From: Alteromonadales bacterium alter-6D02
GTDB lineage: Bacteria; Pseudomonadota; Gammaproteobacteria; Enterobacterales; Psychrobiaceae
Direction: 5' to 3'
Length of the DNA stretch: 64,000 bases
Assembly (NCBI GenBank): GCA_002835545.1
Contig: PIZK01000031.1
Location: 1-64,000, forward strand
Position numbers and translations under genes: made by a program. Numbering within the stretch: position 1 is the first letter of the stretch; each line of letters starts with the position of its first letter. The notes beneath the pieces are model-generated. The model ran no database searches. It worked only from the letters and a program-made list of their open reading frames with translations, and was not told the origin of the DNA. This document shows, piece by piece, positions 35,556-45,458 of the stretch.

Positions 35556-38500
35556 ATGGCTTTTACTATTGGAAGAAAAATTGGCGCGGCATTCGCGGTT
35601 ATTTTGTTACTCATTATCGCCATGGGTATCACGGTTTATACCTTAACAACAGGGATTCTCACTGATTCTGAAGATATTCGTGATGATGATGTCCCTGGGG
35701 TTATTTTATACCTGCAAATCCTAGATGAAATTGGCGATATGCACAGTAATGTTGTTGAGTACAGCACTGGCGAAATTGACGAAGTTGAAGAGTTCCATTC
35801 TAATTTCAAAGAGTTTCAATATTACTTTTCTCAATTAGAACCACTAGAGCAAGGGACTGAAAGCGATAATGAGAAAATGGCGACGATAGAGCGTTTAGTC
35901 AATGATTACGCCAGTCAAATCATACGGGATGTGTTTGAAAAATATGATCCACAAGATGAGCTTTGGGCAAAACAAATTGTTGATGAGTTAGAACATAAGC
36001 AAGGGGCTGAATTAGAAAAGCTATTAGATTCGTTAAAAGAGCAAGAATATCAAGAGGCCCTAGCAGCGAAAAATATCGACCGAGCCATCAACGATGACCT
36101 TCCCGGTGTGAGATATTATCTAGAACTCGTGGATGAAGCTGGGGATATGCTTGCATCACTGAGTGATTATGTCAGCGGAGAGCTCGATGAAGAACAAGAG
36201 TTTAGAGCCAATGCCGAAGATTTTACCCGTTATTTCAATTTACTTGAGCCCCTAGAGCAAAAACCTTCTGAAATAAGAGATTTAATCACAATCAACCGTC
36301 TCTATAACGATATTGTCCTGACCGCCGATGCTGTTTTCCGTCGCTTCGATCCCAAAGTCCGGCTTAACGCCTTAGCGATTATTGACTCTCTTGAACACGA
36401 TAAAATAGAGCAATTAGAGAATATCCTTGATAGCTCTTCACTGGAAGAACAGCAAGATGCAAGTACGGCATTAAATCAACTATCGCAGACCTTAACAACG
36501 GTTAACGCCATTGTCATTAGTTTAGCGATAGCGTCATTAATTATTGGCGTGCTGATTAGTTACTGGATCTCTAACACCATATTGCGCGCCGTGGGTGGTG
36601 AACCCGCTGTCATCGAAGAGATGGCGAACGAAGTCGCTAAAGGTAACATTGAACTTAACTTTGATAGCAATAATGAAACCGGGATCTATGCCGCTTTGCA
36701 GAAAATGATCGTTGCCCTTCGTATAAAAATAACCATGACAGAAAAGATCGCCCAAGGTGATCTTTCCACCGATATTCCCCTCACATCAGACAAAGATAGC
36801 TTAGGTATTGCACTAAACAAAATGCAGCTCAACTTTAAAGACATGATCGAGCAAGCCAACGCCTTTGCCAATGGTAATTACAATAGTCAAATAACCCCGC
36901 GTTCTGCGCAAGACGAATTCGGCATTGCGTTATCACACATGATGCAACAAGTAACCGATAGAAATAAACAAGTTGAATCACAAAACTGGTTAAAAACGCA
37001 AGTGGTTAAAATCAGTAAAATATCTCAAGCAGTTGATAATATAGAGAAGATGTCACAACAACTCGTCAGCGAATTGGCCACCATACTCGGCGCCGGGCAT
37101 GCCGCTTTTTACATGTTGGAAGACAATGATGGAAAAAGCGAGGCAATCTTCCGTTTACTATCAAGTTACGCCTATGTTAAACGCAAAAATATTTCCAACG
37201 AGTATAAATTAGGGGAAGGGTTAGTGGGGCAATGTGCACTAGAGCAACATAATATCGTACTCACTAATGTACCAGATGATTACATAAAAATTACCTCTGG
37301 CTTGGGGGAAAAACCGCCTCTAAACATTGCTCTAATCCCAATACTGTTTGAAAACACGTGTATTGCTGTTATTGAACTTGCCAGCTTTAATCATTTCAAT
37401 GACACTCAAATGGATTTTTTAGAGCAGGCTATTCCTAGCTTAGGAATCACAATGAACAGCTTACTCAGCCGCCAGCGTATAGTGGATTTATTGCAGCAAT
37501 CTCAAAATCAGACAGAACAATTACAGGTGCAATCTGAAGAGTTACAAGCCACTAATACCGAGCTCAAACTCAAAGCTTCTGAGCTGAATAAGCAATCAGA
37601 TCAACTGCAATTGACCAACCAAGATTTAGAACAAAAAACACAAGCACTCGAAATAAAGCAACGCGATATTGAAATTAAAAACCAACAAATTGAACAAAAA
37701 GCGGAAGAGCTATCCGTGGCAAGTAAATACAAATCAGAATTTCTAGCCAATATGTCTCATGAATTAAGAACGCCTTTAAATAGTCTCCTTCTCTTAGCAA
37801 AAGCTCTGTCTAATAACAAAGATGGCAATTTAACCCCTGTTCAAGTCGAAGACGCAAAAGTCATTTTTGAGGGTGGTAGTAGTTTATTATCATTGATTAA
37901 TGACATCATGGACTTATCAAAAGTAGAAGCAGGAAAATTAACCATCAACCACGAAGCGGTCGCTTTTGATCTCTTAACGAAGAATTTAGAAAAAACCTTT
38001 ACCCCTATCGCAAAAGATCGGGAATTAACGTTTACTATAGACATCGCTGATAATGTTCCTAATACTATCATTAGTGATGGTTTACGCATTGAACAAATCC
38101 TCCGTAACTTACTCTCCAACGCCATGAAATTTACTCCCCAAGGTAATGTCACGTTAACCATCGCCAACGCTGATGAAACAGTCGTTCCATCACAAAGTAA
38201 ACTAAACCTAAGTGAAACAATCGCTCTCGCGGTCACAGATACTGGTATCGGCATCGCTGCTGATAAACAACAAGCCATTTTTGAAGCATTTCAACAAGAA
38301 GATGGCACCACCTGTCGCAAGTATGGTGGGACAGGACTAGGCCTAACTATTGCAAGAGAGCTAAGTCGATTACTCAGTGGGGAAATACACTTGCAAAGTC
38401 AACTTGATCAAGGCAGTACCTTCACACTCTACTTACCTAAAAAGTTAGCACTTCAACACGCTGACCACAACGTGATAGACACCCGCTCCAAACCCATGGG

Positions 38501-39803
38501 CAATAAAACTTTAAGTCATCATTCTCCCTTACGCGAGCCTCCTCAAGAACAACTTGTCGATACTACGGCAAATCATGCTCCACCAAGTGATATCATTGTT
38601 GATGATCGACGCAGCATTCATGCCGGAGATAAAACCGTATTAATTGCAGAATTAGACAAAAATTTAGCGTTGTTCTTATGCGAAAAAGCACGCGAAAATA
38701 ACTTTAAGTGTTTATTAGCAGAAAGTGGGCGTAGTGCGATTTACTTAGCCAAGGAGTATCAGCCAACCACCATTTTCTTAGATACTGAACTTGTTGATAT
38801 CAACATTAATCATGTTTTAGAGCAGCTAGACTTCAGTGCCGCCACCAAGCATATTCCAATCCACATTATTGCGACATCAGCGGATGACAAGCCGCGCTTT
38901 TTAACACAAGGACGCATGGGCTGCTTAACCAAACCAATTGATAACAACGAACTGCAGTCGGCCTTTGACAAAGTCTCTCGCTTGGTTAAAAACAATACCC
39001 GTCATATTTTATTGATAGAAGATTCAACAGGAAATCAACGCGCAACCTCACAACTACTAGAAACAGAAGACATTAAAGTTACCTGTGTCGCCACAGGCGA
39101 AGCCGGCCTCGCTGCGATTATAAAGGGGGATTTTGATTGCATTATTCTAGACCTTGGGTTGCCTGACATTAGTGGGTTTGAATTACTCGAATCGCTCCAT
39201 AATCAAGACGCTCCAAATATCCCTCCTATCATTATTTATACCGGTAAGGAAATCGACAATGAACAACAACGAGAGCTCGACAAGTACTCTTCTTCAATCG
39301 TTCTTAAAGGCGCTGATTCAGCCGAGCGCTTAGTTGATGACGTATCACTCTTTTTACACCAAACCCCACTCTCTCAGGTCGAGAATGTCTGTGCGTTGCA
39401 TGATGAAGAAGCCCTACTTCAAGGGCGTAAAGTACTTCTAGTCGATGATGACATGAGAAACTGCTACGCCCTGTCAAAAATGCTGATGGAGATCGGCATA
39501 GACGTTGCAATTGCAGAAAATGGCCAAGAAGCTATTGAGCTTTTAGAACAAGCTGATGATTTTGAGTTGATTCTAATGGACACCATGATGCCTGTTATGG
39601 ATGGTAATCAAGCAACCGAAGCGATTCGTAAGATGGCCGCTTACCAAGAGGTGCCTATTATTGCGCTAACAGCGAAAACTATGCCTGAAGATAAAGAGAG
39701 ATGCTTCGAGGCAGGCGCTTCAGAATATATCACCAAACCCTTTGTGTTTGATGAATTGGTGTCTGTCATGCGTATTTGGTTATTTCCCAACAAAGAAGAG
39801 TAG
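35556..39803 (+). CDS. Hybrid histidine kinase with duplicated sensor module
   Basis: 1415 residues. Membrane helices near 10-33 and 318-340 enclose a periplasmic domain made of two similar modules about 134 residues apart (DDDVPGVILYLQ... and NDDLPGVRYYLE..., each ending LEPLEQ). HAMP-like segments (about 340-470) are followed by GAF (about 490-640), a Gln/Glu-rich coiled coil (about 645-725), HisKA with His735 (NMSHELRT) and HATPase (about 840-965). Three receiver domains follow: the first with a weaker acidic pocket (IAELDKN), the others with IEDSTGN/LDLGLP and VDDDMRN/MDTMMP. A hairpin lies directly after the stop codon; 119 bp downstream begins the borosin methyltransferase. No DNA-binding output is present, so it works by phosphorelay. 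Confidence 0.93.
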   Translation: MAFTIGRKIGAAFAVILLLIIAMGITVYTLTTGILTDSEDIRDDDVPGVILYLQILDEIGDMHSNVVEYSTGEIDEVEEFHSNFKEFQYYFSQLEPLEQGTESDNEKMATIERLVNDYASQIIRDVFEKYDPQDELWAKQIVDELEHKQGAELEKLLDSLKEQEYQEALAAKNIDRAINDDLPGVRYYLELVDEAGDMLASLSDYVSGELDEEQEFRANAEDFTRYFNLLEPLEQKPSEIRDLITINRLYNDIVLTADAVFRRFDPKVRLNALAIIDSLEHDKIEQLENILDSSSLEEQQDASTALNQLSQTLTTVNAIVISLAIASLIIGVLISYWISNTILRAVGGEPAVIEEMANEVAKGNIELNFDSNNETGIYAALQKMIVALRIKITMTEKIAQGDLSTDIPLTSDKDSLGIALNKMQLNFKDMIEQANAFANGNYNSQITPRSAQDEFGIALSHMMQQVTDRNKQVESQNWLKTQVVKISKISQAVDNIEKMSQQLVSELATILGAGHAAFYMLEDNDGKSEAIFRLLSSYAYVKRKNISNEYKLGEGLVGQCALEQHNIVLTNVPDDYIKITSGLGEKPPLNIALIPILFENTCIAVIELASFNHFNDTQMDFLEQAIPSLGITMNSLLSRQRIVDLLQQSQNQTEQLQVQSEELQATNTELKLKASELNKQSDQLQLTNQDLEQKTQALEIKQRDIEIKNQQIEQKAEELSVASKYKSEFLANMSHELRTPLNSLLLLAKALSNNKDGNLTPVQVEDAKVIFEGGSSLLSLINDIMDLSKVEAGKLTINHEAVAFDLLTKNLEKTFTPIAKDRELTFTIDIADNVPNTIISDGLRIEQILRNLLSNAMKFTPQGNVTLTIANADETVVPSQSKLNLSETIALAVTDTGIGIAADKQQAIFEAFQQEDGTTCRKYGGTGLGLTIARELSRLLSGEIHLQSQLDQGSTFTLYLPKKLALQHADHNVIDTRSKPMGNKTLSHHSPLREPPQEQLVDTTANHAPPSDIIVDDRRSIHAGDKTVLIAELDKNLALFLCEKARENNFKCLLAESGRSAIYLAKEYQPTTIFLDTELVDININHVLEQLDFSAATKHIPIHIIATSADDKPRFLTQGRMGCLTKPIDNNELQSAFDKVSRLVKNNTRHILLIEDSTGNQRATSQLLETEDIKVTCVATGEAGLAAIIKGDFDCIILDLGLPDISGFELLESLHNQDAPNIPPIIIYTGKEIDNEQQRELDKYSSSIVLKGADSAERLVDDVSLFLHQTPLSQVENVCALHDEEALLQGRKVLLVDDDMRNCYALSKMLMEIGIDVAIAENGQEAIELLEQADDFELILMDTMMPVMDGNQATEAIRKMAAYQEVPIIALTAKTMPEDKERCFEAGASEYITKPFVFDELVSVMRIWLFPNKEE

Positions 39804-39829
39804 CGATAATCTTTAGCTAAGGATTATCG
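39804..39829. terminator. Hairpin between hybrid kinase and borosin genes
   Basis: CGATAATC and GATTATCG, extended by TTAGCTAA inside, form a long stem beginning directly after the kinase stop codon. No strong T-run follows, so it may only partly end transcription before the borosin genes. Confidence 0.5.
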
Positions 39830-39922: not shown

Positions 39923-40741
39923 ATGAATAAACAAGGTTCGCTCACGGTTGTCGGCACAGGGATTAAAATTGCTGGCGACATGACACTCAATACTCAAGCG
40001 CAAATCAAGCAGGCCGACATCGTTTTTACTGTGGTGCCAGATAAAGTATCAAAACAATGGCTTGCCAAGTTAAATCCAAATACCGTTGATATGACTGAGT
40101 TTTATGGCAGCAATAAATCACGGTTAATTACCTACAACGAAATGGCCAATGCTCTTGTTGAGTCAGTCAAACAAGGCAACAACGTCTGCGCCGCCTTTTA
40201 CGGTCACCCCGGCGTATTTGCCTATGCAAGTCACTTAGCCATTCGTCAACTAAAAGCCCTAGGCTATCGTGCCAAGATGCAACCGGGCATTTCAGCTGAA
40301 GACTGGTTGGTTGCGGACCTTGGCATAGATCCGGGAAAAAGTGGTTGTATTAGTATTGAAGCGACCCAGTTTCTGTTTTATCAACGCACCATAGACCCCT
40401 ATTCACTCCTCGTGTTATGGCAAATTGGTCTGGTTGGGGATCACACCCTCGCCTTAGATAAGACCGACAACTACCAACGTGGACTAAAAGTGCTCTCGAA
40501 TGAGTTACTTAAATATTATCCGAGCGACCATCAAGTGATAATCTACGAAGCGGCTACGCTAGCATTATTTCCGCCGAGAATAGAACATATTGCCCTAGCG
40601 CAGCTACCTCAGGCGAAGCTCACTGCAATATCAACATTAGCGATTCCTCCTTACCAAGAGGCCCCCCTCGATCTTGCGGTGTTAAAACAACTGGGCTTAA
40701 CACCAGAGGATATCGATAACGCGTTATCCATTGATAAATAA
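39923..40741 (+). CDS. Split borosin peptide alpha-N-methyltransferase (SonM-like)
   Basis: 272 residues with the tetrapyrrole-methylase fold. It is expected to methylate backbone amide nitrogens of the peptide encoded next door, using SAM. It shares the borosin blocks I recall from fungal OphMA: GSLTVVGTGIK (SAM loop), YGSNKSRLITYNEM (catalytic Arg/Tyr segment), YGHPGVFAYASHLA, PGISAEDWLVADLGIDP, IEATQFLF and YSLLVLWQIGLVGD. In fungi the substrate is fused to the enzyme; here the enzyme ends before any core peptide and a separate precursor follows, as in Shewanella oneidensis SonM/SonA. Ribosome site weak. Automated annotation may call it a SAM/tetrapyrrole methyltransferase. Confidence 0.92.
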   Translation: MNKQGSLTVVGTGIKIAGDMTLNTQAQIKQADIVFTVVPDKVSKQWLAKLNPNTVDMTEFYGSNKSRLITYNEMANALVESVKQGNNVCAAFYGHPGVFAYASHLAIRQLKALGYRAKMQPGISAEDWLVADLGIDPGKSGCISIEATQFLFYQRTIDPYSLLVLWQIGLVGDHTLALDKTDNYQRGLKVLSNELLKYYPSDHQVIIYEAATLALFPPRIEHIALAQLPQAKLTAISTLAIPPYQEAPLDLAVLKQLGLTPEDIDNALSIDK

Positions 40742-40811
40742 TTCAATCCTATTACTATAGGGACTCAAATAGATATCAGAAACTCTCTGAAAAGTTAGTA
40801 AGGTATAACAA

Positions 40812-41030
40812 ATGACAGATTTACTCGTAGAATATGTATTAGAACTTAATTCAAACCCTGAAGCACTCGCTGCTCACGAAGCGAACCCTGAGCAAGCTGC
40901 TCGCGACTTCGGCTTAGATGAGGCAGACATTCAGTTAATTCTCGACCAAGATGTAGCAGAGATACAAAAACGCTGCGACTCATCGCCAATTGATACTAAA
41001 GGCACGATGATTATGTTCTTTAAGCCGTAA
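40812..41030 (+). CDS. Borosin precursor peptide (SonA-like)
   Basis: 72 residues. Residues 1-55 form a LigA-like helical recognition domain (YVLELNSNPEALAAHEANP, then ARDFGLDEADIQLILDQD). A short linker (SSPIDTKG) leads to a hydrophobic C-terminus, TMIMFFKP (65-72), the presumed methylated core. SonA is, as I recall, methylated at two hydrophobic residues separated by one position near 63-65; the matching zone here is Met66-Phe69. AGTAAGG precedes the ATG. The methyltransferase ends 70 nt upstream and the TPR hybrid kinase starts 32 nt downstream. No protease or exporter gene is adjacent, so maturation steps are unknown. Confidence 0.88.
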   Translation: MTDLLVEYVLELNSNPEALAAHEANPEQAARDFGLDEADIQLILDQDVAEIQKRCDSSPIDTKGTMIMFFKP

Positions 41031-41062: not shown

Positions 41063-43918
41063 ATGCACATGACTTTTAAAATTGTACTGTTTGTCATGAC
41101 GGTGCTTTTATCTTCTGCCTTAACAGCAACTGATAATGTCACTCAAAAAAACCTAACTATTGACAATAAGTTAGCTGAAATTGAACAATTAGCTCTTTCA
41201 GACTTGGAGCAGTCCAAAAAGCTCATCTTAGCAACAAAAGCCTTGTTAGCGCAAAAATCCACACCTGCCCAGCTGGCAACGTTCAATAATTTAACGGCTT
41301 ATACGCATTTATTATCCAGAGAATATGAGCAAGCGTATAAGTACCTCTCTCTCAGCCAAAAGTATGCCCTTGAAGCTAATAATGTTTATGCCCAAGCAGA
41401 ATCGAAACGACTAAAAGGAGTGTTATATTCACTCACCAACCTCCCTGAAGAAAGCCTGCCTTTATTTTTAGAAGCGCTGGCCTTGCATAAACAGTTAGGT
41501 TCAAAAAAAGAGTTTCATACATTACAAGGCATCAGCCTTTACTATCGCAATCAGCATGACTTCAATAAATATTTAGAGTACGGACGCTTGCTTATTGAAC
41601 ACCCGCTTGTAAAAAGTGGCCCCCAATATAAAGGCACCGCCGAATATACTATTGGAGAGGGGCTCTTAAAACTAGGGCAATACGAAGAGGCAAGACCCCA
41701 CTTAATCAACTCGATTCGTATATTAAACAGTATGTCATCCACTTGGGTCAGCGAAGCCTATATTTCATTAGCCGAATTAGAACTGTTAACGGGCAACACT
41801 CAGCAGGCCATCGACATACTAAACACTAGCACAGCCATGGCCACCAAAAATAGTTACTTTGCTGCCCAACTAAAAGCTGAACTACTCAGAGCTAAGGTTC
41901 ATCAAACCATAGGCAATAACACTAAAGCCATTGCTATTTTACAGGCTTTGCTGCCCACCGCTAGACTCCACAAAGATCAAGCGGCAGAGCGCCAAGCTGA
42001 GCAAATGTTCGCCAGCTTATTAGAACAGCAAGGTGATTATAAAGCTGCATTGCAACATCAAATCGCATTTAAGAACATTAGTGATAACATCAATCAGAAA
42101 AACCAACAGAGTAAATCAACCTTCTTACGTGCCCGCTTAGATTTAGAGCATCAAGAGCAACAAATCAAACTGCTCAAACAGCAACAAGAGCAACAAGCGT
42201 TTCAACAAGCTCAAAAGCAACGAACATCTCAACTTCGAGATATTGCATTAGGCCTGTTCATTGTGCTCGTGCTTTTCATGGTTTACTACCTCATTAAAGC
42301 GCACAAAGTGAAGAGAAAAATGCAGCAATTGGCTCTTGAGGCTGAAACCGCAAATAAAGCTAAAAGTAACTTTCTTGCTAAAATGAGCCATGAGATACGC
42401 ACGCCAATGAATGCGATTATCGGCCTAAGTCAGCTGAGTCTCAAAGACGCGCTGTCTGACAAACAGCGTGAAAACATTTCGATGGTCCATGCCTCGTCTC
42501 AATCGTTATTAACCTTACTGAACGATTTATTAGATTTTTCTAAAATTGAGGCGCACAAACTAGAACTCGAACAAGCCGATTTTTCACTGAGCGACTCGAT
42601 AGACCGCTTACTAAATGTCTGTCACTTCAGTGCCCAAGAAAAACAACTTAAGCTCAATATCGTCATTGATAGTGACGTGCCCGATGCGTTTAATGGTGAT
42701 GCGCTGCGCCTTGAGCAAGTGTTAATTAATCTAGTGAATAACGCGATTAAATTTACTGAGCAAGGCGATATCGCGCTTCACATTTCGCTGCTTGAACAAC
42801 AGGGATCGGTTAGTCGCTTATCGTTCGCCGTAACCGATCACGGAATTGGTATCGCCGAAGAGCAGCTCGATAAGCTATTTCAAGCGTTCTCTCAATCTGA
42901 CAACTCTATCACTCGGCGCTATGGCGGCACTGGATTAGGGTTAGTCATCTGTAAAGAAATCGTCGAGTTGATGTCTGGCAGTATCCATGTCACCAGTGAA
43001 CTCGGCAAAGGGTCGTGCTTTAGCTTTAATGTCGTTCTTTCTAGCGGCAGTGACGTTAATTCTTCATTAATGAACCCAGCAGTCGTTAGTTTACCAGCAT
43101 TCAAAATCTTAATCGTTGATGATAGCAAAAGCTCTCGAGCGCTATTGAGTGATATGCTAAACAAATTCAACCTCGAGGTTGAGCAAGCACAGGGGGGGCT
43201 CGAAGCCTTAGAAATATTAAAACAAGCGGTCACCGAACAAGCTCCCTTTGATGTCGTATTGATGGACTGGCGCATGCCCGGTCTGGATGGCTTTGAATCG
43301 ATTCGCATCATCAATCAAGTGATCACAGACAATTTACCGCACTTTATCTTAATTTCTTCGTTTGATAAGAGTGACGCTGCTGATTTAAGTCGCACGACCC
43401 CCGTTGCCGATATTTTAGAGAAACCAGTCAAGCCTACACAATTAATCGCGAGCTTAGCCAAACTTGAAAAGGCCACATCAGCTCCCACGCTTCCAAAGCC
43501 AACAATAGAAAATAATGACTCTAATTCAGCGCATTTAAATTTACTGCTAGCTGAAGATAACCTGATTAATCAACGGGTCATTCAAGGGTTTTTAGAAGAT
43601 CTTAATGTCACTATCGATTGTGTCAACAACGGCTTAGAAGCCGTTAAAGCCGTGCAAAAACAACACTACGATCTTGTGTTAATGGATGTGCAAATGCCGC
43701 AAATGGATGGGCTAGAAGCGACCCAAATGATCCGTCAAAAGTTTAATAATGATACGCCTATTATTGCCATGACCGCGCACAGCACCAAAGAAGACGAAGA
43801 GAAGAGTTTAAACGCTGGCATGAATATGCACCTAACCAAACCCGTCGATTCCAAAGCATTAATTGCACTAGTTCATGATTTAATGGAAAAAAAAGCAATG
43901 GCCAATACATCGGTTTAA
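41063..43918 (+). CDS. TPR-sensor hybrid histidine kinase
   Basis: 951 residues. A signal peptide or N-terminal helix (1-22) precedes periplasmic TPR-like repeats (about 60-350), a Gln-rich coiled coil, a membrane helix (about 393-412), HisKA with His443 (KMSHEIRTPMNAIIG), HATPase (DHGIGIAEEQ, GGTGLGL) and two receiver domains (from about 680, VDDSKSS/MDWRMPG; from about 826, AEDNLIN/MDVQMPQ). No output domain. TPRs in the periplasm bind peptides or proteins, and the gene follows the borosin precursor by 32 bp, so it could sense the N-methylated product; that is inference. An ATG two codons later is an alternative start. Confidence 0.93.
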   Translation: MHMTFKIVLFVMTVLLSSALTATDNVTQKNLTIDNKLAEIEQLALSDLEQSKKLILATKALLAQKSTPAQLATFNNLTAYTHLLSREYEQAYKYLSLSQKYALEANNVYAQAESKRLKGVLYSLTNLPEESLPLFLEALALHKQLGSKKEFHTLQGISLYYRNQHDFNKYLEYGRLLIEHPLVKSGPQYKGTAEYTIGEGLLKLGQYEEARPHLINSIRILNSMSSTWVSEAYISLAELELLTGNTQQAIDILNTSTAMATKNSYFAAQLKAELLRAKVHQTIGNNTKAIAILQALLPTARLHKDQAAERQAEQMFASLLEQQGDYKAALQHQIAFKNISDNINQKNQQSKSTFLRARLDLEHQEQQIKLLKQQQEQQAFQQAQKQRTSQLRDIALGLFIVLVLFMVYYLIKAHKVKRKMQQLALEAETANKAKSNFLAKMSHEIRTPMNAIIGLSQLSLKDALSDKQRENISMVHASSQSLLTLLNDLLDFSKIEAHKLELEQADFSLSDSIDRLLNVCHFSAQEKQLKLNIVIDSDVPDAFNGDALRLEQVLINLVNNAIKFTEQGDIALHISLLEQQGSVSRLSFAVTDHGIGIAEEQLDKLFQAFSQSDNSITRRYGGTGLGLVICKEIVELMSGSIHVTSELGKGSCFSFNVVLSSGSDVNSSLMNPAVVSLPAFKILIVDDSKSSRALLSDMLNKFNLEVEQAQGGLEALEILKQAVTEQAPFDVVLMDWRMPGLDGFESIRIINQVITDNLPHFILISSFDKSDAADLSRTTPVADILEKPVKPTQLIASLAKLEKATSAPTLPKPTIENNDSNSAHLNLLLAEDNLINQRVIQGFLEDLNVTIDCVNNGLEAVKAVQKQHYDLVLMDVQMPQMDGLEATQMIRQKFNNDTPIIAMTAHSTKEDEEKSLNAGMNMHLTKPVDSKALIALVHDLMEKKAMANTSV

Positions 43919-44198: not shown

Positions 44199-45458
44199 GT
44201 GAAACATATCACCCTCTTACTGCTCACTAGCGTCTTAATCGCTTGCAGCCACCAGCCTGATATTTACAACACTACCAACCAATCTCAGAATAATGAACAA
44301 AGTCATCAAGCACCGTATGTGCTCTTGGTATCCATTGATGGCTTTCGCTGGGATTACATTGAGAAGTACCAGCCACCCTTTTTAAGCCAGTTCGCTAAGA
44401 ACAGTGCCAGCCTAAAGTCACTACAGCCTTCGTTTCCAACTAAGACCTTTCCTAATCATTTATCCATTGTAACCGGGTCATACCCACAACATCACGGTAT
44501 CTTAAACAATCGCTTTCATGCTCCCGATCTCAATAAAGATTATTCAATTTCCGACCCTACTGCTGTAACTAATGGTGATTTCTATTTACGAAAACCTATT
44601 TGGGTTATGGCCGAAGAGCAAGGAATGAGAACCGCCAGTTTCTTTTGGCCAGGCTCTGAAGCTAAAATTTTTGGAAAAAAGCCAACGTACTTTGTCAACT
44701 ATGACCACAATGCACCACACCAACCTAGACTAGATACGGTTGTAAATTGGTTTAAGCTGTCAGCAGCGCGCCGACCACACTTTGTCACTACCTACTTTCA
44801 CGATGTTGATAGTGCTGGTCATCACTATGGCCCTAACTCACCACAAGTCGCTGCGGCCATTAGTAAAGTGGATAGCTCTTTACAGCAACTCCATCATGAA
44901 CTTACAAAGCTTGATATTGCCGTCAACATAGTCATTGTGTCTGATCATGGCATGGCACAACATAACACTGGAAATTTTGAAACTCTCCCGAAAGGCTTGC
45001 AACAGCAATTCTTTAGTAAAGGCAAAGGGCCTATCGTTCACCTTTATCACAACAATAAAGTGCCATCGCTGCGTCAAGCTGATATCACTCAAGCTTTAAC
45101 GCAATTAAACCAACAAGCACAACATTACCGTTGCTTTGAATATCAAACGATCCCCGTTAAATTTAATGCTCACAAGTCACAACGCATTGGTGATATTACC
45201 TGCTTGGCCAATCAAGGCTGGGCAATTGGCTTTAGTGAACACCGAATTAAGGGAGACCACGGTTGGAGTCAATTCGCGAGTAAAGATATGGACGGGATTT
45301 TCTATGCGTCGGGTCCAGCTTTCAAGCAAGGTTATCAACACCCAACAACGGAAAACATCCATATCATGCCATTATTAGCACACATATTAGGACTGCAAGT
45401 TACAGGACCAATTGACGGTAAACTGGAACAATTAACCCCATTACTCATCGATAAATAA
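44199..45458 (+). CDS. Alkaline-phosphatase-superfamily phosphodiesterase (NPP type), lipoprotein
   Basis: 419 residues from a GTG start with a lipobox (LIAC). The family core reads LVSIDGFRWDYI (metal-binding Asp), PTKTFPNHLSIVTG (nucleophile Thr), FHDVDSAGHHYGP, VSDHGM and KGDHGW. These match nucleotide pyrophosphatase/phosphodiesterases, which hydrolyse nucleotide or lipid phosphodiesters with two zinc ions. Probably periplasmic or surface exposed. The 280-bp gap before it has no gene but has repeated AACGTT-type motifs, including an ACGTTAAG/CTTAACGT inverted repeat at 44032-44057. Confidence 0.92.
   Translation: MKHITLLLLTSVLIACSHQPDIYNTTNQSQNNEQSHQAPYVLLVSIDGFRWDYIEKYQPPFLSQFAKNSASLKSLQPSFPTKTFPNHLSIVTGSYPQHHGILNNRFHAPDLNKDYSISDPTAVTNGDFYLRKPIWVMAEEQGMRTASFFWPGSEAKIFGKKPTYFVNYDHNAPHQPRLDTVVNWFKLSAARRPHFVTTYFHDVDSAGHHYGPNSPQVAAAISKVDSSLQQLHHELTKLDIAVNIVIVSDHGMAQHNTGNFETLPKGLQQQFFSKGKGPIVHLYHNNKVPSLRQADITQALTQLNQQAQHYRCFEYQTIPVKFNAHKSQRIGDITCLANQGWAIGFSEHRIKGDHGWSQFASKDMDGIFYASGPAFKQGYQHPTTENIHIMPLLAHILGLQVTGPIDGKLEQLTPLLIDK

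Follow-up and report, generated by a model that had tools for sequence, protein, structure and literature searches.

We found that a borosin-type methyltransferase gene and the gene of its small precursor are followed directly by the gene of a membrane sensor kinase with a tetratricopeptide repeat (TPR) region, and we propose, with a probability of about 70%, that the three genes form a ligand-receptor signalling module working like ComQXPA of Bacillus, the methylated core of the precursor being the ligand of the TPR sensor. The window, that is, the whole stretch of 64,000 nucleotides analysed, covers positions 1 to 64,000 of contig PIZK01000031.1 from Alteromonadales bacterium alter-6D02. An earlier sequence-only reading had described a two-gene natural-product pair at this place. 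Both genes are real; the conserved unit, however, consists of three genes, and the third one, encoding the TPR sensor kinase directly downstream, is tied to the core by comparison of relatives.

In the mechanism that we propose, the methyltransferase would dock the leader of the precursor and N-methylate the backbone of the C-terminal core, and an unlinked protease would free a short hydrophobic N-methylated peptide, which, perhaps permeating passively, would arrive in the periplasm or outside the cell. The hybrid kinase encoded next to the precursor would then bind its own cognate peptide with its periplasmic TPR domain and be switched thereby, while in most relatives the output switched by the TPR domain would be a diguanylate cyclase. 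Core and TPR domain would diversify and be swapped together as a matching pair, a behaviour known from peptide pheromone systems. Most likely, a core-derived peptide is the ligand of the TPR sensor and the window pair belongs to a module of this kind with histidine-kinase output. For the species of the window we infer methylation, release, export and binding, as well as what the signal controls; we know of no dedicated protease or exporter for such peptides.

The open reading frames of the methyltransferase (39923-40741) and of the precursor (40812-41030) are uninterrupted and lie both on the plus strand. The first encodes a SonM-like borosin alpha-N-methyltransferase of 272 aa, recognised by Pfam (TP_methylase, E 1.2e-22) and by alignment to SonM (PDB 7LTC, E 1.1e-79); it also matches the fungal OphMA (E 3e-52), in both cases over nearly its whole length. 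Residues Y58, R67, Y71 and Y93 of SonM were examined by mutation (PMC8429565) and correspond in the alignment to Y61, R67, Y71 and Y93 of the window's enzyme, all four being invariant in an alignment of 21 sequences. The borosin catalytic Tyr and Arg residues, on whose presence the sequence-only reading had made its claim depend, are therefore in place, in a discrete methyltransferase as is characteristic of type IV split borosins. Between the upstream kinase gene and the methyltransferase there is an inverted repeat, CGATAATC...GATTATCG (39804-39829), with no clear T run, and it is absent from the list of the terminator scan.

The precursor gene starts 70 nt past the methyltransferase gene and encodes 72 aa, so it is separate, adjacent and close to the size of about 75 aa of type IV precursors. 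As judged by its reading frame, profile searches and a structural model, it consists of a SonA-type leader, i.e. a borosin binding domain, and a C-terminal core; the C-terminal end reads ...DTKGTMIMFFKP. Searched alone against SonA, the precursor gave a weak match (E about 1.3), but a profile built from 15 relatives with no Shewanella sequence included found SonA with an E value of 5e-8 over the leader. The AF2 model (mean pLDDT 75.7) contains five helices in residues 4-57, consistent with the five-helix bundle of the borosin-binding-domain leader, and SonA chains are its best structural likeness (top ten rows: prob 0.94-0.99, TMt 0.64-0.82), with weak Foldseek E-values, all of at least 0.28. 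Together with the SonM match, the leader profile upholds the previous description of a split borosin methyltransferase with a discrete LigA-like precursor and, on these similarities, we assign the window pair, as a new member, to the type IV split borosins.

The core peptide is predicted as GTMIMFFKP (residues 64-72, positions 41001-41027 of the plus strand) from the alignment with SonA (PMC8429565), and it differs from the SonA core SYLVISHGNGD, as had been noticed from the letters alone. A related core, VMVGFFKQ, occurs in a relative of the same genus. Since cores vary between most lineages compared, an unfamiliar core is not unusual in itself. The methylation sites of SonA, L63/I65 (PMC8429565), align to residues 64 and 66 of the precursor, where the hydrophobic run begins at 66, and by this alignment N-methylation is expected somewhere within residues 64-70. 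A Pfam scan of the seven neighbouring ORFs recognised no protease or exporter, in agreement with the first description of the locus.

The sensor gene (41063-43918, plus strand) starts 32 nt past the stop codon of the precursor, just outside the interval described previously. Pfam and a hydropathy scan divide its product of 951 aa, the proposed receptor of the core peptide, into a signal peptide or anchor, a TPR superhelix, a transmembrane segment, HisKA, HATPase and two receiver domains. According to the model and the comparison with relatives, the TPR superhelix spans residues ~32-345 (41156-42097, plus strand) and is the part that, among relatives, varies with the core. A predicted transmembrane helix follows at residues 388-416 (42224-42310, plus strand, hydropathy scan), then HisKA and HATPase_c at residues 433-657 (42359-43033, plus strand, Pfam), which are conserved among genus mates, and the C-terminal receiver at residues 828-937 (43544-43873, plus strand, Pfam), with the second receiver before it. 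In the structural model (pLDDT 89.8) the TPR superhelix is followed by one long helix (326-405) that enters the membrane segment. The hydropathy scan places hydrophobic segments at residues 1-23 and 388-416, on both sides of the TPR region; since the kinase is presumably cytoplasmic, the TPR region is predicted to lie in the periplasm. By the same scan, precursor and methyltransferase have no hydrophobic segment. For scale, TPR_12 is matched 16 times in the genome of the window, within 10 open frames.

Directly upstream of the trio, a large hybrid sensor kinase is encoded at 35556-39803 (HAMP, GAF, HisKA, HATPase and three receivers). It was considered as a partner and set aside, because three genus mates with the trio have other genes upstream. 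Also, the phosphodiesterase gene that follows the trio (44199-45458) is present in seven of nine genomes of the genus, and it was rejected as a part of the module since in the three mates (G001, G006 and G007) it lies on a contig other than that of the trio.

Relatives of the methyltransferase were found in 70 of the 295 genomes of the order (E 1e-20). For the survey of loci we took the best 80 of 576 confirmed candidates, those with organism titles, with ORFs from a purpose-written greedy caller by which starts and some genes are approximate. These loci come from Shewanella, Alteromonas, Paraglaciecola, Rheinheimera, Neiella, Pleionea, Dyella, Rhodanobacter and others. A same-strand gene of at least 350 aa lies close by in 71 of these best 80 loci, downstream in 67 and upstream in four; for L045 the count refers to the nearest gene downstream, though this locus has a TPR-kinase upstream. 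The other nine of the 80 have no large same-strand neighbour, and at least two of them (L035 and L057) have little DNA on that side. Among the 71 large neighbours from the best 80 loci plus the window's protein, GGDEF was detected in 49, HATPase in 13 and TPR_12 in 44 (E 1e-3). Next after the methyltransferase, 64 of 81 loci (the best 80 of 576 plus L003) have a leader-type precursor and 17 have none, and the gap between precursor and sensor is at most 60 nt in 53 of 59 loci, with a median of 10. Of the 57 sensors in which an output motif was recognised, 45 have both hydrophobic segments and 12 lack one at the hydropathy threshold used. In the gammaproteobacterial relatives, the precursor is usually followed at once by the gene of a TPR-kinase or TPR-diguanylate cyclase. 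The three genes also go together within the window's genus: the methyltransferase is present in four of nine genomes, and precursor and TPR domain in the same four. The other five, of which three are at least 93% complete, are without the trio, with these exceptions: one has a TPR hit of 22% identity, and two have hits to the precursor with E values of 0.08 and 0.7, inside longer frames.

Core and TPR domain change together more sharply in Shewanella than in the window's genus. Of 249 pairs of loci with flank orthologues, the best 60 by flank identity were examined. Between S. oncorhynchi (L040) and S. hafniensis (L047) the flanks are 95% identical (five proteins), the methyltransferases 97% and the GGDEF domains 99%, while the TPR domains share only 46%; the respective cores are YQTFILVNHGNN and YQSYLVISHGNGE. 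Conversely, L040 and strain ANA-3 (L039), with nearly the same core, have TPR domains 93% identical and GGDEF domains just 77% identical. Along the nucleotides of L040 and L047, identity is 83-100% per 100 nt over the methyltransferase and most of the leader, falls to ~50% from the core on, and recovers at sensor residue ~300-350, ahead of the membrane segment (~378). Loci L074 and L083 show the same pattern of divergence. The product may act with its leader still on, as the sequence-only reading had suggested, but the exchanged segment sets in near the core instead of where the leader begins, an indication that it is the core that is recognised. In S. morhuae (L044:7846-8363) two tandem precursors, one of each of the L040 and L047 core types, stand before one sensor; the first of them is without the usual stop and extends beyond the usual end, as if a former allele may have been left behind.

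A variable block was also found in the window's genus. In three genus mates the trio occupies one shared locus whose flanking proteins are mostly 80-99% identical, with a few lower; a peroxiredoxin-like protein (93-99%) and a CheY-like protein (95%) are among these flanks. Between G006 and G007 the kinase is 94% identical, the first receiver 92% and the second 85%, versus 42% for the TPR region, 46% for the precursor and 54% for the methyltransferase. Nucleotide identity drops from ~80% to 44-62% in a stretch that begins upstream of the methyltransferase and lasts until the TPR region ends; the remaining sensor has 66-82%. Here the methyltransferase is variable too, so that the block is wider than core and TPR. 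None of the close relatives examined has the window's flanks, and exchange at the window's own locus is for this reason deduced from the genus mates. Taken over both genera, whose output domains differ, core and TPR are replaced jointly, in a stretch that has its edges near the leader/core boundary and where the TPR fold ends; by these comparisons this is the pattern of a diversifying ligand-receptor pair. Just upstream of the methyltransferase, G007 and G001 have a divergently transcribed gene of a PhyH-family dioxygenase (L132:8416-9306 and L133:9906-10718, respectively, both on the minus strand), a possible further tailoring enzyme; the two copies are just 40% identical, with flanks beyond them of 97-99%. 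In G001 (L002, L031, L133) two unlike precursors, ...LMLTIHS and ...AILGFFNQ, follow one another ahead of a single sensor.

As a control for the sensors, 25 orthologous GGDEF/TPR pairs were hand-picked by like ORF length from the L040 and L047 genomes, out of 53 and 54 GGDEF matches plus TPR matches; 20 of these pairs were scored, and five were unscorable by the script. In 19 of the 20, N-terminal identity is 78-99%, including an unlinked TPR-GGDEF protein (84%), with one scored N-terminal stretch of 68 residues and one protein cut by a contig end. The borosin-linked sensor is the single exception, with 46% in the N-terminal part and 99% in GGDEF.

The relation was also measured across 24 of the 28 Shewanella-group loci listed, L043, L048, L091 and L094 being dropped as no output motif was found. 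With core similarity taken as the best ungapped overlap and 5000 permutations, the partial correlation of core and TPR was 0.53 (p 2e-4) given methyltransferase, leader and output; a core measure with cheap end gaps, in which unrelated short cores score high, gave 0.35 (p 5e-4). Output and TPR gave 0.12 (p 0.09), and core and output 0.32 (p 2e-4). The TPR domains form 16 clusters at 60% identity, and each of the six clusters with several members has one core type; L095, with a core much like that of the L036 group, has a TPR domain in a cluster of its own. Among 76 pairs from 34 loci with methyltransferase identity of at least 80%, 63 have core and TPR on the same side of 60% identity (both at or above it, or both under it), and the other 13 comprise 12 with a like core and a different TPR and one of the reverse kind (2x2 table 19, 12, 1, 44), the pairs being non-independent and the 0.6 cut-offs set after inspection of the data. 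At a core threshold of 70% there are five exceptions, all of Rheinheimera type, whose cores have a common PAEEP frame. In Rheinheimera-type loci (L058, L059, L061, L065, L071, L100, L101, L108) a GNAT-like gene stands between methyltransferase and precursor, and the precursors have a VCG..PAEEP core and an acidic tail, with strongly different TPR domains despite similar cores.

The adjacency of precursor and TPR DNA alone could make core and TPR co-vary. In this sense, we weighed an explanation that we consider unlikely, namely that the locus makes an ordinary split borosin product, e.g. antimicrobial or metal-related, that the sensor regulates the pathway in response to another cue, and that core and TPR co-vary by adjacency in a recombination-prone stretch. 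Fungal borosins are indeed bioactive products (PMC8429565), precursor and TPR are physically adjacent, and the leader also correlates with the TPR domain (partial correlation 0.48, p 2e-4, 24 loci). However, the methyltransferase, which borders the precursor on its other side, does not track the TPR in Shewanella (partial correlation 0.07, p 0.28, 24 loci), the divergence extends from the core to the end of the TPR fold inside the sensor gene in two genera with different output domains, and unlinked sensors of the same genomes are not hypervariable. Allelic core/TPR pairs would fit kin discrimination as well as a pheromone system, and a self/non-self or immunity role, in which neighbours are harmed or marked by the methylated peptide and a response is armed when the TPR sensor detects peptide of the cell's own type, has to be considered. 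We judge it quite improbable, since the outputs known are signalling domains, kinase or GGDEF, and no toxic activity of these peptides was found in the literature examined. Binding of the TPR domain to the precursor itself or to its complex with the methyltransferase instead of to a released peptide, e.g. as a chaperone or anchor, would agree with the correlation of the leader and with the lack of a linked protease or exporter, but is very improbable given a TPR region predicted in the periplasm between segments 1-23 and 388-416, a precursor and a methyltransferase without hydrophobic segments, and an exchanged stretch that spans the core rather than the whole leader.

The signalling module that we favour resembles known systems in different respects. 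SonM/SonA of Shewanella oneidensis (PMC8429565) also consists of a discrete methyltransferase with the same active-site residues and an adjacent precursor of ~70 aa whose leader belongs to the same family and whose C-terminal core is hydrophobic; the core sequence differs. The output of the neighbouring sensor differs as well, being a hybrid kinase in the window and GGDEF in the Shewanella loci examined (e.g. ANA-3, L039). The available text of PMC8429565 does not mention GGDEF, diguanylate, histidine kinase, tetratricopeptide or operon.

In ComQXPA of Bacillus, the known case of such a diversifying ligand-receptor pair, a modifying enzyme, a precursor and a sensor kinase are likewise encoded side by side and, according to PMC4408185 and PMC4008528, enzyme, precursor and part of the sensor are polymorphic between strains while other loci are conserved. 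For instance, comQ is just 65-70% identical between clusters and diverges by more than 30% among strains with clonal gyrA (PMC4408185). A polymorphic precursor and sensory domain between conserved flanks and a conserved output was found here too, in the relatives rather than at the window's own locus. On the other hand, ComQ is an isoprenyl transferase whereas the modifying enzyme of the window is a TP_methylase, a backbone N-methyltransferase, which sets it outside the ComQXPA family; the sensory part is a TPR superhelix, the host is Gram-negative and the output is often GGDEF. The comparison would therefore be one of working and not of membership, and common ancestry is not claimed.

RRNPP receptors such as Rap and NprR share with the window's sensor a TPR superhelix, which in them is the receptor of short peptides. 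They are cytoplasmic and bind unmodified linear peptides, whereas the TPR region of the window is flanked by the two hydrophobic segments. The best structural matches of the TPR model include Rap and NprR chains (VIA Z 22-26), which fits the proposal, but equal or higher scores are reached by LGN and other unrelated TPR proteins, so the fold is uninformative on function.

Beyond the window, we lean slightly towards the view that gammaproteobacterial split borosins as a class may be peptide pheromones, with backbone-N-methylated ligands, matching periplasmic TPR receptors that feed into histidine kinases or diguanylate cyclases, and pherotypes arising through exchange of core-plus-TPR cassettes. 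If true, this would be a new kind of Gram-negative peptide communication and would give a function to SonA-type pathways. It would also connect c-di-GMP and two-component signalling with a backbone modification that is rare, and bring modified-peptide pheromones with periplasmic TPR receptors into Gram-negative biology. The proposed cognate receptor in the adjacent gene makes this a concrete, testable hypothesis, with two purified parts and the tractable Shewanella oneidensis MR-1. In the literature searched, outside of which the main borosin surveys fall, we found no description of a borosin together with a diguanylate cyclase and, in the available parts of those sources, no link of borosins to histidine kinases or quorum sensing; it is uncertain whether the neighbourhood of borosin and TPR sensor genes is new.

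Some relatives have other gene arrangements. An uncultured Alteromonadaceae bacterium (L052:7001-8640) has two tandem methyltransferase genes and then one precursor. Beside a Colwellia methyltransferase (L066:7871-8311), a 146-aa ORF with about five near-identical HKA(F/L/V)(F/L)-ANDGQEF repeats is a candidate multi-core precursor, in which the profile used found no leader homology. Kangiella-type precursors (L005, L006, L007, L035) have two like cores per peptide, KLLLLEP... and KLLLLTP..., and in L006, L007 and L035 a GNAT-like gene is located upstream. In the cyanobacterial relatives L067, L075 and L110 the methyltransferase is followed by TPR-repeat proteins with no signal peptide by eye, nine TPR families being matched in Pfam in L110, and this arrangement is possibly a different form of the same theme.
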